Shown: piece by piece, positions 29,201 to 48,735 of the stretch
Layout: each line of letters opens with the position of its first letter
Numbering within the stretch: position 1 is the first letter of the stretch
Assembly (NCBI RefSeq): GCF_014205155.1
Contig: NZ_JACHMX010000001.1
Coordinates: 7,440,001-7,504,000, forward strand
Length of the DNA stretch: 64,000 nucleotides
Source: Amycolatopsis umgeniensis
Lineage (GTDB): Bacteria; Actinomycetota; Actinomycetes; Mycobacteriales; Pseudonocardiaceae
Direction of reading: 5' to 3'
Position numbers and translations under genes: made by a program
Notes under the pieces: model-generated
The model's input: the letters and a program-made list of their open reading frames with translations, nothing else
The model's database searches: none
Told to the model about the DNA's origin: nothing

Positions 29201-29253
29201 TCCGGCGCGAGAGCACAGGGTCGTGAGCGCCCTAGGTACCTACCGCGGCGGTC

Positions 29254-29378
29254 GGACGACACGCGTGATCGGATGGACGACACGCGTGATCAGGCGGACG
29301 ACTCACCGCGGGACCCGGTCGTACACCGTGTCGTCCGTCCAATCACATGAGTCGTCCGTCCAATCACGCGTGTCGTCC
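29254..29378. repeat. 21-bp-pitch repeat array A
   Basis: GGACGAC occurs at 29254, 29275 and 29296, exactly 21 nt apart, and its complement GTCGTCC at 29330, 29351 and 29372, again 21 nt apart. All pairs are symmetric about 29316. The unit core is GGACGACACGCGTGATC; the last four or so bases vary. The array lies between the helicase terminator and the xylose operon leader. It shares the core ACNCGCGTGATC with arrays at 39836 and 46519. Confidence 0.85.
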
Positions 29379-39759: not shown

Positions 39760-39835
39760 GAAGGGTCACGCTAGAAGATCGCCGCCCACCTCGCAGATCG
39801 GTGGGAGCCGGGTTCGCGGTCAGGGCGAAGGCGTA

Positions 39836-39971
39836 ACTCGCGTGATCAGGGACCGCACTCGCGTGATTGGGGGCGGAACTCACGTGACTGGAGGCCGTAC
39901 TCGTGAGTTCCGCCCCCAATCACGCGAGATACGCGCTTGATCACGTGAGTTCCGTGCCTGATCACGCGAGT
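39836..39971. repeat. 21-bp-pitch repeat array B
   Basis: ACTC-initiated units begin at 39836, 39857, 39878 and 39899, each 21 nt apart. Inverted units end at 39908, 39929, 39950 and 39971, also 21 nt apart. Every pair is centred on 39903.5. The core is ACTCGCGTGATCAG with CACGTG or CGCGTG variants. It lies between the APC permease start and the response-regulator terminator. Confidence 0.88.
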
Positions 39972-39989
39972 GCGGTGTCGCGCCACCCC

Positions 39990-40069
39990 GCTGAAGGGGA
40001 CTTTCACCCGCATGTGACGCGGTGAAAGCGCCCTTCGCCTCGTCGCATGCGGTGATGGGCCCCTTCAGC
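39990..40069 (-). terminator. Nested hairpin after the response regulator gene
   Basis: GCTGAAGGGG (39990-39999) pairs with CCCCTTCAGC (40060-40069), and inside it CTTTCACC (40001-40008) pairs with GGTGAAAG (40021-40028). It starts 12 nt past the regulator stop on the minus strand. Confidence 0.65.
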
Positions 40070-45267: not shown

Positions 45268-45313
45268 AGCGGTTTGTATCGAAAGTATGCGCGCGGCCGG
45301 GAGGCTCGCGGGC

Positions 45314-46513
45314 ATGAAGAGGCTGGGACTACTCGCTTCACTTCTGCTGGTGTTCGCGCTCATCCCCGGGGCCGCCTCCGCCGCGGCCGCCTTCCCGAGG
45401 ATGGACGCGGCCACGGTCGACGGCTACCGCTGGACGCCGGGTTCGGCCTTCGAAACCTACGGCGCGCGGATCGCCGCGCTGGAGAAAAAGCTCCCCGCAC
45501 GCGGTCTGCCGGAGATCCTTTCGTCGGCCAACCGGAAGGCGCGGCCGCTGTGCCACGGCACGTATCTCGCGGCGGCGTTGAAACCGGCGGGATTCTGCTG
45601 GGAGGACGCAGGAGACGACAAGACCAACGACTGGATCCCGCAGGGACTGACCGGTTCCGGCGACGCCGACGCGGCGACCGGGAAGGTCGGCGGCAAACGG
45701 GTCGTCGCGACGTCCTGGCACACCCCCGGCGACACCATGGTCCGGCTGTCCTTTGTGGATGCGACCGGACTGGGATACCGGCACGTCCTGCTCGTCGAGC
45801 CGACGTCGGACGACAACTTCGCCGTCGTGCAAGGACACGGGCACGGGATGACCTGGATCGGGAACCGGCTGTTCGTCGCGACCACCGGTGGCGTGGTGCG
45901 GGTCTTCGACACGACGCACTTCTGGAAGGTCGACGACAGCTCCGGTGTCGTCGGGAAGGGTCCGGACGGCAAGTACCACGCGGCGTTCTACGACTACGCG
46001 ATGCCGCAGATCGGCGCGTTCTGGTACCCCGGCGGCGGAACGTGCACCACCGCGACCGGGCCGCGGCCTTGTCTGTCCACGATGTCCTTTGACCACAGTG
46101 ACAGCTCGATCGTGACCTCGGAACACGTGCCCAAGGCGGCGGGCAGCCGGGTGCTGCGCTGGCCGTTCGACCGCGCGACCGGCCTGCCGAAGCTGTCGGC
46201 CGACGGCACCGTGCACGCGAAGGAAGGATTCGTGTCGCCGGTGTGGGGCATGCAGGGAACGGTGGCGCGCAACGGATACTTCGTGATGACCGGTACCTGC
46301 CCCGAGTACGCCGGGGTCGCGGGCGACCATCCGTCGTGCCTGCACGGCGGTGTCGGCGGCACCTCGACGTCGCGGCTGAGCGGGAAGGCGCCCGTGAACT
46401 CGCAGAACCTGTCGTACTGGCCGGCGACGGGGGAGCTGTGGCTGATGAACGAGCAGCTCCGGGAGCGCGTGACCGTGCACGTCCCGTGGACGACGCTGAC
46501 CGGCCGCGCCTGA
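45314..46513 (+). CDS. Secreted protein of unknown function
   Basis: A 399-residue exported protein. The ATG at 45314 follows GGGAGG, and the signal peptide is MKRLGLLASLLLVFALIPG with a cleavage site near GAASAAAA. The mature part contains repeated beta-strand stretches such as GNRLFVATTGGVVRVFDT and QGTVARNGYFVMTGTC that suggest a beta-propeller, and six cysteines in likely disulfide pairs (LCHGTY/FCWED, TCTTAT/PCLSTM, TCPEYA/SCLHGG). No catalytic motif is recognised. It is followed by repeat array C. Confidence 0.75.
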   Translation: MKRLGLLASLLLVFALIPGAASAAAAFPRMDAATVDGYRWTPGSAFETYGARIAALEKKLPARGLPEILSSANRKARPLCHGTYLAAALKPAGFCWEDAGDDKTNDWIPQGLTGSGDADAATGKVGGKRVVATSWHTPGDTMVRLSFVDATGLGYRHVLLVEPTSDDNFAVVQGHGHGMTWIGNRLFVATTGGVVRVFDTTHFWKVDDSSGVVGKGPDGKYHAAFYDYAMPQIGAFWYPGGGTCTTATGPRPCLSTMSFDHSDSSIVTSEHVPKAAGSRVLRWPFDRATGLPKLSADGTVHAKEGFVSPVWGMQGTVARNGYFVMTGTCPEYAGVAGDHPSCLHGGVGGTSTSRLSGKAPVNSQNLSYWPATGELWLMNEQLRERVTVHVPWTTLTGRA

Positions 46514-46518
46514 CCGGA

Positions 46519-46694
46519 ACTCACGTGCTTGAACCCGTAACTCACGTGCTTAGACCCGGAACTCGCGTGATCAGACCCGGAACTCGCGTGACTGGCTGCC
46601 GCACTCGACTTCGCCCTCCAAACACGTGAGTTCCGGGTTCAAGCACGCGAGTCACGGCTCTGATCACGCGAGTTCCGTGGCTGATCACGTAAAA
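46519..46694. repeat. 21-bp-pitch repeat array C
   Basis: Units starting with ACTC begin at 46519, 46540, 46561, 46582 and 46603, exactly 21 nt apart. Inverted units end at 46631, 46652, 46673 and 46694 (the last degenerate). All are symmetric about 46606.5. The core ACTCGCGTGATCAG or ACTCACGTGCTTGA is followed by ACCCGGA-type spacers. The array fills the gap between two convergent genes. Confidence 0.9.
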
Positions 46695-46721
46695 CACGGG
46701 TTCAGGCGGACGTAGCGGGGA

Positions 46722-47240
46722 TCACGGGGTGAAGTCCCAGCGTGTGGCGCCGTGAGGTTCGGCGCCCGCCACGCCGACGGCGCGGTGCAGCGTGAGGCGG
46801 TACAGATGCCAAGGCGGGGGCCCCGCGCTGGGCGCGCTGAACGGAGCCGTGAGCGCGTCGCCCTCCACCGTCGCGGGCCAGCCGCCTTTCCGGTAGACCG
46901 CCGCCACCCGCTCCAGGGTCGCGGGGTCGGTGACCCGGTGCGCCTCGCCTTCCAAAGTGAGGTCGATTCCCCGCAGGCGCACCGAAACGGCGCACGCCGG
47001 GTTCACCGCCAGGTTGCGGGACCGGCGGGTGTCCGGCCCGCCCTTGAAGTACAGCGCGTCGTCCACCCAGACCGCCCCGACACCCGCCGAGTGCGGCCGC
47101 CCGTCGGGGCGCACGGTCGTCACGAAGAAGGTCAGGTCGGCTGTCGGCGTGTCCTCGGTGAGGATGTCGCGGGGTCGGCTCCACGGCAGCTCCGCGGATC
47201 CGTAGCGGTCGAGGTTCTTGGTCGCGTGAGGGTTCGTCAT
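46722..47240 (-). CDS. Pyridoxamine 5'-phosphate oxidase-fold protein (FMN or F420 binding)
   Basis: A 172-residue split-barrel flavoprotein. The conserved strands are LTFFVTTVRPDGRPHSAGVG, AVWVDDALYFKGGPDTRRSR and NLAVNPACAVSVRLRGIDLT, the pattern of the PNPOx-like family that in actinobacteria includes F420- and FMN-dependent reductases. The C-terminal PPWHLYRLTLHRAVGV ends the barrel. The substrate is unknown. It stands alone with a start at ATG 47240; no good ribosome-binding site is seen. Confidence 0.82.
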   Translation of the reverse strand: MTNPHATKNLDRYGSAELPWSRPRDILTEDTPTADLTFFVTTVRPDGRPHSAGVGAVWVDDALYFKGGPDTRRSRNLAVNPACAVSVRLRGIDLTLEGEAHRVTDPATLERVAAVYRKGGWPATVEGDALTAPFSAPSAGPPPWHLYRLTLHRAVGVAGAEPHGATRWDFTP

Positions 47241-47285
47241 ACAAACGCGTCGAACGGGCGGGCCGCTTTTCGACACCGGACGCGA

Positions 47286-47320
47286 AAGACCCCGTCACCG
47301 GAATGCGGTGACGGGGTCTT
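47286..47320 (-). terminator. Terminator of the principal sigma factor gene
   Basis: AAGACCCCGTCACCG (47286-47300) and its complement (47306-47320) form a perfect 15-bp stem with loop GAATG, 15 nt beyond the sigA stop on the minus strand. Confidence 0.82.
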
Positions 47321-47334
47321 CCGTGAGTCTGGGA

Positions 47335-48735
47335 TCAGTCCAGGTAGTCGCGCAGCACCTGCGAACGCGACGGGTGACGCAGCTTCGACATCGTCTTCGA
47401 CTCGATCTGCCGGATGCGCTCACGGGTCACCCCGTACACCTGGCCGATCTCGTCGAGCGTGCGCGGCTGGCCGTCGGTGAGGCCGAACCGCAGCCGCACC
47501 ACACCCGCCTCACGTTCGGACAGCGTCTGCAGCACCGACTGGAGCTGGTCCTGCAGCAGCGTGAACGACACCGCGTCGACAGCGACGACGGCCTCGGAGT
47601 CTTCGATGAAGTCACCGAGCTGCGAGTCGCCCTCGTCGCCGATGGTCTGGTCGAGCGAGATCGGCTCGCGGGCGTACTGCTGGATCTCGAGGACCTTCTC
47701 CGGGGAGATGTCCATTTCCTTCGCGAGCTCTTCGGGGGTGGGCTCGCGACCGAGGTCCTGCAACAGCTCACGCTGTATACGGCCGAGTTTGTTGATGACC
47801 TCGACCATGTGCACCGGGATACGGATGGTGCGGGCCTGGTCGGCCATCGCGCGGGTGATCGCCTGACGGATCCACCAGGTGGCGTACGTGGAGAACTTGT
47901 AGCCCTTGGTGTAGTCGAACTTCTCGACCGCGCGGATCAGACCGAGGTTGCCTTCCTGGATCAGGTCCAGGAACGCCATGCCACGGCCGGTGTAGCGCTT
48001 CGCCAGCGAGACCACGAGCCGGAGGTTCGCCTCCAGGAGGTGGTTCTTCGCCCGTTCACCGTCGCGCACGATCCACTTGAGGTCGCGCCGCATCTGGGTG
48101 ACGAGCTTCTCGCCCTCCTCCTCGGCGTTGCGGACGCGTTCGGCGGCGTAGAGCCCGGCCTCGATGCGCTTGGCGAGCTCCACCTCCTCCTCGGCGTTCA
48201 GCAGGGCGACCTTGCCGATCTGCTTGAGGTACGCACGGACCGAGTCGGCCGAAGCGGTGAGCTCGGCGTCCTTACGGGCCTGGCGCAGCGCCTCGGACTC
48301 TTCCTCGTCCCAGACGAAGTCCGGGTTGTCGGAGGTCTTTCCGGCGTTCTTGTCGGTCGAGGTGCGGCGACCGCGGGCGGGCGTCTCTTCGACGTCCTCC
48401 TCGGACTCCGCGTCCTCTTCCGTCTCCTCGGTGACGGTCGCGTCGACGACGTCCACCTCGACCTCTTCGAGGTCGGACAGATCCGGGGTTTCGAGGTCGG
48501 CTTCGTCGAGCTCGCCGGGACCGTCTTCCGGTTCGCCGTCTTCGGTCTTGGCGCCCTTGGTGGTGGGTTTCTTGGCCGGAGCCTTCTTCGCCGGGGCCTT
48601 CTTCGCGCCTGCCGCCTTGGCGGCGGTCTTGCGCGCAGCGGGCTTCGCCTCGCCGGTGGCTGCCTCGTCGGCCGGCTCGCCGGTTGCGGTCGCTGTCTTC
48701 GTCCCGCTTCGGGTTGCGGTTCTTGCGGCTGCCAC
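47335..48735 (-). CDS. sigA: Principal RNA polymerase sigma factor (SigA/HrdB)
   Basis: A 466-residue primary sigma-70. The first 150 residues are an extension with [22 protein letters not shown] lysine/alanine repeats and a strongly acidic stretch ([19 protein letters not shown]). The conserved part starts near [20 protein letters not shown] (region 1.2), then [20 protein letters not shown] and [20 protein letters not shown] (region 2), and [20 protein letters not shown] (4.2). It directs housekeeping transcription. It heads the block syntenic with mycobacterial sigA-ppgK-suhB. The start is GTG 48735. Confidence 0.95.

Follow-up and report, generated by a model that had tools for sequence, protein, structure and literature searches.

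Phased arrays of 21-bp repeats behind the genes of Amycolatopsis umgeniensis and related species

Array C lies at 46519-46694 of the window, by which we mean the whole 64,000-nucleotide stretch of the Amycolatopsis umgeniensis genome analysed here. We read it as one copy of a dispersed, BIME-like gene-end repeat whose phased sites may bind a putative protein. This reading was built from sequence comparisons, and we hold it with somewhat less than even confidence. In its favour we counted the position of the arrays at gene 3' ends, their strict pitch, the kept core, their presence or absence at orthologous sites, the all-or-none occurrence of core pairs and the existence of arrays running in one direction. 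Against it we counted the other hairpins found in the same slots, the match between arms of the same array and the better folding of real arrays relative to arrays with random spacers.

Array C and its sister loci

Array C has eight recognisable 21-bp units, four direct and four inverted, about one shared dyad. The left arm (46519..46602, plus strand) consists of four direct units starting at 46519, 46540, 46561 and 46582, and the right arm (46611..46694, minus strand) of four inverted ones, whose 5' ends fall at 46631, 46652, 46673 and 46694; the outermost inverted unit (46694) is degraded (TTTTACGTGATCAG). The initial annotation had described nine units sharing the centre 46606.5. All four dyad pairs do have this common centre; the proposed fifth direct unit at 46603, however, keeps only ACTC, on the left side, and represents the dyad centre (46603..46610) rather than a full unit. 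The unit consensus of the family is about ACTCRCGTGATYRGRNNCGGA. Each unit is formed by ACTCRCGTGATYRG plus a variable spacer, and is near-palindromic only at the inner TCRCGTGA.

The stop codon of the upstream gene (45350..46513, plus strand, with an uncertain start at 45350 or 45287) is found 5 bp before the array; the form starting at 45287 gave no match in Pfam. On the other side, a convergent pyridoxamine-5'-phosphate-oxidase-like (PNPOx-like) gene (46722..47240, minus strand) has its 3' end 27 bp past the array, and is followed by the sigma factor gene sigA (47335..48735, minus strand), with sigma-70 regions 1.2, 2, 3 and 4. Regarding this PNPOx-like gene beside sigA (46722-47276 of the window), we observed by eye that A. 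coloradensis, A. roodepoortensis, A. decaplanina and A. pittospori lack it between the corresponding neighbours, and that it seems shortened in A. oliviviridis.

Two other loci in the window, at 29254 and 39836, had been proposed to share the design of array C, and both are real. Array A (29259..29373) carries a variant, type-2 unit (ACACGCGTGATYRG followed by RYGGACG), with two direct and two inverted copies at a 21-bp pitch. Array B is a 183-bp insertion (39810..39992) formed by outer ends and the units at 39836-39971. Besides, a stretch resembling GGCCAACC..GGTACCTAC was seen by eye to flank several arrays, mostly of type 2, at 29230-29258 of the window, before 18043 in L047, before 16417 in L068 and after 9910 in L083. 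Arrays with this common flank may be parts of a larger composite element.

Pitch, copy number and position in the genome

The window contains 13 copies of ACTCRCGTG where 2.3 would be expected, and none of 100 shuffles reached that number. It also contains a run of four cores on a 21-bp grid, with a maximum of two among 200 Markov-1 sequences. The whole genome (9.23 Mb, one contig) contains 78+79 pairs of the form ACTCRCGTG-N12-ACTCRCGTG, while the reversed control gave 0+0. With the looser core CRCGTGAYY, the copy count rose to 123+117 = 240 pairs at the 21-bp pitch (reversed control 0+0). A 23-bp-pitch control with CGYGTGAYY gave no match in this genome and one match each in three of 60 genomes. 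When the spacing between two CGTGATY was left free (11 to 40 bp) in genome G030, 76 of the 100 listed places showed exactly 21 bp and the remaining 24 had scattered spacings (hand count). The pitch noticed in array C is thus genome-wide, and it is also present in other genomes of the genus (37 of 80, counting our own); the refuting case named in the initial annotation, a lack of this spacing in other genomes, did not occur.

We then characterised the arrays in a sample of 60 stretches plus the window (1.25 Mb), mostly picked around known array places. A weight matrix detected 384 units of at least 9 bits, against 19 in the reversed control; six contiguous stretches (120 kb) chosen regardless of arrays held one unit of at least 12 bits. 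Among 355 neighbouring units, same-strand distances of up to 70 bp took only the values 21 (216 cases), 42 (97), 63 (21) and 62 (4). With a helical repeat of 10.5 bp, 21 bp are two turns of DNA; an unvarying core thus recurs after every two turns, as in phased protein-binding arrays. In convergent arms, the innermost pair spans 52 bp in 27 of 62 cases, 51 bp in 13 and 10 bp in nine; the remaining spans range from 20 to 73 bp. Most of the 62 spans are close to odd multiples of half the pitch. The units form 98 clusters, comprising 29 single units, two pairs and 67 arrays of three or more units, and eight of these 67 run in one direction at the score used. From the 67 arrays and the fraction of listed places that the sample covers, we estimated that the genome contains about a hundred. 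Equal arm length is not a rule (19 of 45 arrays, compared with 16.2 expected, p 0.21). Recent whole-array copying was also rejected as the main source of arrays: the 25 best pairs were 81-92% identical, barring one local tandem duplication.

The arrays are gene-3'-end elements. From the 67 arrays we placed 63, of which 32 were in convergent, 29 in tandem and two in divergent intergenic regions, when intergenic length would predict 14.4, 28.4 and 20.1, respectively (chi-square p 6e-9; the background is that of array neighbourhoods, since the stretches were picked around arrays). In 25 of the 29 tandem cases the upstream stop was the closer gene end. The location of copies relative to gene ends, which the initial annotation had proposed to examine, is therefore behind stop codons, mostly in convergent regions or nearer the upstream stop. 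Genes were called with a simple codon-usage script; among the four unplaced arrays, one is at a stretch end and three overlap a called gene by at least 20%, perhaps because these genes are false. A gene common to closely spaced arrays was sought and rejected, as none appeared in five intervals read by eye. In L070 (11266-12294), an array follows a gene with a ParB-like N-terminal part (by eye). The core TCACGTGA also occurs in parS sites, and the combination of a ParB-like neighbour with a parS-like core is probably a coincidence.

Distribution among genomes and turnover at orthologous sites

In the genus, CRCGTGAYY pairs were found in 37 of 80 genomes (own included), with 18 to 284 pairs each, and the other 43 had none. 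At the level of the order, 20 of 397 genomes matched (own included): ten Amycolatopsis with at least 18 pairs, and ten others with one to three. Among 50 named genomes, drawn from a set of 80 loci, 18 Amycolatopsis had 51 to 284 pairs, A. taiwanensis had six, A. thermalba one and 30 none. All six pairs of A. taiwanensis belong to one unidirectional array of near-identical units (L211), located between two tandem genes, the sole place with such pairs in that genome.

Close relatives fall on both sides of this divide. A. orientalis and A. regifaucium have no pairs, and their nearest sampled relative, sp. WAC 01376, has 174. On a linked-gene tree the first two are sisters, placed next to sp. WAC 01376 (supports 0.89 and 0.91), and nine of the 11 members of the group enclosing them are positive for arrays. 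In the mediterranei group, three of 12 genomes lack pairs (sp. 2-2, A. pretoriensis and A. eburnea), on branches with partly weak support. A sample of A. orientalis (161 kb) gave seven isolated unit-like matches of at least 9 bits, two of them reaching at least 12 bits, against none in the reversed control, so the absence in this species concerns arrays and pairs and not every trace of the unit. For sp. 2-2 we found 14 unit-like matches against eight in the control; the weight matrix was trained on our own genome, hence counts in the mediterranei group are lower bounds. By a rough estimate, decay alone would have left some pairs in A. orientalis, and the all-or-none pattern suggests that the upkeep of arrays relies on a trans-acting factor. 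A search for another core at the same pitch showed no peak at 21 in intergenic DNA of A. orientalis (14.0 kb) and sp. 2-2 (60.8 kb), and none was seen in a small sample of one 20-kb locus from each of five array-free species.

Arrays come and go at orthologous sites. A. azurea and A. thailandensis lack the 183 bp of array B, their orthologous sequence reading across the junction; the other nine relatives differ at this junction in other ways. The slot of array C was compared by eye in 11 species. It is occupied by a type-1 array in A. thailandensis and A. decaplanina, by one of type 2 in A. keratiniphila and by other inverted repeats in seven of the 11, while in A. orientalis there is another gene and the slot is unreadable. 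At the first L060 site our genome has an array where eight of 11 relatives have a bare junction of 26-27 bp, and A. orientalis, A. thailandensis and A. roodepoortensis have other sequence, mostly hairpins. The array of the second L060 site is shared by our genome and seven of 11 relatives; A. orientalis, A. regifaucium, A. oliviviridis and A. pittospori have no array there, and no unit was seen in A. orientalis. One slot of the mediterranei group, read by eye, has arrays in seven and other hairpins in four of the 11 readable species (one of the 12 is missing), and three of the four hairpin-bearing species are the array-free ones. In a second slot of this group, arrays were seen by eye in L103, L104, L106 and L111 and none in five species, with three more unreadable or missing. 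The number of units per array also varies among relatives.

At the orthologues of the array C and L060 slots (L091-L100, L146 and L217-L246), we observed that unrelated inverted-repeat families, of the TTYRGTCCTCT, CGTGAGTGG..CCACTCACG and GAAGG..CCTTC types, replace one another downstream of the same genes when sister species are compared, and that one is at times nested inside another. In our own sample, TTYRGTCCTCT was found ten times in convergent regions, eight in tandem, once in a divergent region and once in a gene (reversed control 0); for CGTGAGTGG the figures were 13 convergent, six tandem, one divergent, five in genes and one at an edge, with eight raw matches in the reversed control. 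A longer form of TTYRGTCCTCT is present in at least 19 of 80 genus genomes, own included, counts that are lower bounds because the pattern misses TTTCGTCCTCT variants. Genomes G015 and G079 have this longer form and lack array pairs. Besides, the second L060 site has, next to array halves or separating them, a stretch of about 700 bp in A. orientalis, A. regifaucium, A. azurea, A. thailandensis, A. roodepoortensis and A. coloradensis (L220-L226). By eye it is seemingly a two-gene module, encoding a helix-turn-helix protein and a small partner, as in toxin-antitoxin pairs.

One could argue that the arrays are a selfish, MITE-like repeat, inserted and amplified by an enzyme acting through the core, with copies surviving behind genes where they do least harm. 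Presence and absence at orthologous positions, by which MITEs are recognised, was indeed found: array B is a 183-bp insertion relative to A. azurea and A. thailandensis, and the first L060 site is a bare junction in most relatives. The similar outer ends of several arrays and the nesting of arrays with another hairpin family (both by eye) speak for the same idea, as does the all-or-none distribution across genomes. However, array B and the first L060 site, the two insertions that we examined by eye, showed no clear terminal inverted repeat or target-site duplication, and we saw no associated transposase. In particular, Y1 (IS200/IS605-type) transposases (PF01797) were found in none of the 80 genus genomes, own included, with a search whose control was positive in five of 14 known genomes. 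Array C as a query matched no plasmid or phage record, and a stricter pair pattern matched no viral contig; an origin in such elements is thus unsupported, as judged from one array and one strict pattern. Finally, the second L060 array has been kept with its core in our genome and seven of 11 relatives, more than would be expected of a dead insertion. We consider a selfish repeat of this kind unlikely. The idea of a REP-like mobile repeat, raised by the initial annotation, holds for behaviour (insertions and empty sites) and fails for membership: with no Y1 transposase found in the 80 genomes and a unit that is not a palindrome, the arrays were rejected as members of the REP/RAYT system.

Core, folding and relation to known repeats

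To compare core and spacer in an orthologous array, we used the second L060 site in our genome and seven other species, matching units by rank from the centre; these may not be true orthologues, since unit numbers differ between species. Over the core (positions 1, 3 and 5-9), 4-12% of comparisons show a difference, depending on which of four matching schemes was applied to the units, or 5-16% with the variable positions 0, 2 and 4 included; the corresponding values are 13-46% at positions 10-13 and 36-50% at spacer positions 14-20. The GTG of this array is invariant except at its T in the outermost unit of our genome, and seven sequences of a 36-bp flank differ from each other by 3.6%. Six of the eight species have a centre gap of 42 bp, one has 41 and our own has 22. 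Over 351 units of our genome, entropy was 0-0.03 bits at GTG and 0.86-1.67 bits in the spacer; part of the core-versus-spacer contrast, in the orthologous array too, is ascertainment, as the unit score is weighted on the core. When units are taken from different arrays of our genome, 6.62 of the 12 positions 9-20 are identical, so that about 45% differ. The orthologous spacers come close to this value and are thus near saturation, while the core stays. The earlier observation that cores are conserved and spacers differ also holds in this orthologous array across eight species.

A kept core on a held 21-bp grid with free spacers points, on sequence grounds, to a phased core recognised on DNA, and not to an RNA hairpin alone; the pitch itself could be inherited via tandem duplication. 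In the explanation that we favour, every member of the family strings its 21-bp units into a single arm or, in most cases, into two arms inverted to each other, and the conserved core, RCGTGAT preceded by ACTC, would be the binding site. A putative lineage-specific DNA-binding protein would occupy adjacent sites along a single face of the helix, and the array so covered would mark or close a transcription boundary for the genes on either side, by analogy with the protein-binding BIME sites of enterobacteria. The two-arm RNA hairpin may help to end or protect transcripts. Of the possibilities listed by the initial annotation, a binding array for a putative protein fits best, given the phased, constant core. 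A further proposal appears doubtful to us: that the hundred or so arrays are read by a lineage-specific protein setting transcription or domain boundaries, and that loss of this protein makes arrays vanish, as in A. orientalis and A. regifaucium, with other hairpins filling the slots.

Folding offers a different account, in which the arrays are a family of hairpin terminators whose arms pair in the RNA of either strand to end or protect transcripts, with core and pitch kept for register. The 3'-end position fits this account, and folding is strong: the array C region reaches -112.3 kcal/mol (z -8.4, with none of 200 shuffles as good), and for either strand of the 40 arrays folded, out of 45 eligible, z averaged about -8. 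Other inverted repeats occupy the array C slot in seven of 11 relatives and the mediterranei slot in four of 11, so a hairpin may be the shared property of what stands there. Excerpts of a study in Streptomyces clavuligerus report 353 of 535 highly structured transcript ends without a U-rich tract (PMC8269248). These ends are also GC-rich structures, some of them bidirectional; unlike for the arrays, a repeated core or pitch is not mentioned in the excerpted text (PMC8269248).

The spacers, in contrast, show no dyad-specific match. Of 12 positions, 7.51 are identical between dyad partners and 7.40 between the remaining cross-arm pairs; units of the same arm share 7.52 and units of different arrays 6.62. 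In the orthologous set the values were 5.77 of 11 for dyad partners and 6.15 for other cross-arm pairs. Arms of the same array do match better, with 8.63 pairable positions of 12 against 8.00 +/- 0.15 when right arms were reassigned, and real arrays fold better than those given random spacers from the pool (mean z -0.85, 31 of 40 below 0, p 4e-5). Permuting spacers within an array had no clear effect on folding (-1.6 +/- 1.2 kcal/mol, p 0.19). Both the arm match and the folding results can be explained by a general resemblance among the units of an array, and there may be a loose pairing constraint on the spacers. At the mediterranei slot, both arms of a species carry a similar spacer type, GGGGCATC or GGGTCGAC (by eye). 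Besides, eight of the 67 arrays run in one direction, and a hairpin does not require a fixed core over hundreds of units and many species. Both sigA and, at another locus, clpC have conserved hairpins of their own next to the slot (by eye). A scan of 46300-47400, covering array C only, found no GC-rich stem with a T run, which is weak evidence, given that this simple scan also missed the sigA hairpin. Rfam returned nothing above gathering score for 46300-46900 of the window (only two sub-threshold microRNA matches), and a known RNA family was thus rejected for array C. The suggestion of a terminator family stands as far as position and folding on both strands are concerned, and is weakened by the lack of a T-run stem at array C and of dyad-specific pairing. 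The RNA hairpin is probably not what keeps core and pitch, and we regard a pure hairpin family as rather improbable; together with the selfish repeat it takes about half of the probability. A local accident or an assembly artefact of tandem duplication in the window, which the tandem-repeat-like variation in unit number might evoke, is refuted by the same core and pitch in 240 pairs of our genome and in 37 of 80 genus genomes, and deserves practically no credence.

Amycolatopsis includes producers of rifamycins and glycopeptides. If the explanation by protein-bound arrays is true, many species of the genus harbour an undescribed gene-end element, and array sites could be used as bait for the putative protein. 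The all-or-none pattern among sister species would provide natural controls, and the repeat families that replace one another behind the same genes would make the role of dispersed extragenic repeats directly testable by swapping.

Dispersed extragenic repeats are a known kind of element; a phased, inverted 21-bp family without RAYT is, to our knowledge, undescribed, and among the titles and abstract starts listed, a literature search showed no description of phased 21-bp strings about one centre. REP/BIME elements prefer gene ends, and the arrays likewise show high copy number, extragenic location and a bias towards gene ends. BOX elements of Streptococcus pneumoniae are also intergenic, and their distinct ends enclose middle units that vary in number; their units differ in length and sequence from those of the arrays, and they are not known to have an inverted pair of phased strings. 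As described in excerpts of PMC2817692, REP/BIME units are short and extragenic, often exceed 100 copies per genome, form composite arrays and contain protein-binding sites. The likeness lies in the short extragenic units, the high copy number and the composite arrays. The differences are that the arrays are exact 21-bp direct strings that invert once, whereas REPs alternate in orientation, that the array unit is not a hairpin, and that its consensus contains no GTAG tag. CGTC-type REPs are dispersed, extragenic palindromes of 20-40 bp, apparently without a dedicated transposase (PMC3733652, in part); phased strings of units are found only in the arrays, as far as this part of the source goes, and the words Actinobacteria and Streptomyces are absent from its main text (PMC3733652). 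The TAACTGA repeats of Beggiatoaceae and others, as presented in excerpts of PMC4679880, form 169 intergenic sets of two to six copies in one genome, are patchy across species and have been proposed as sites for a binding factor. According to the same excerpts (PMC4679880), these heptamers are mostly just upstream of start codons, with a proposed post-transcriptional role, while the arrays are made of 21-bp units and are located behind stop codons.
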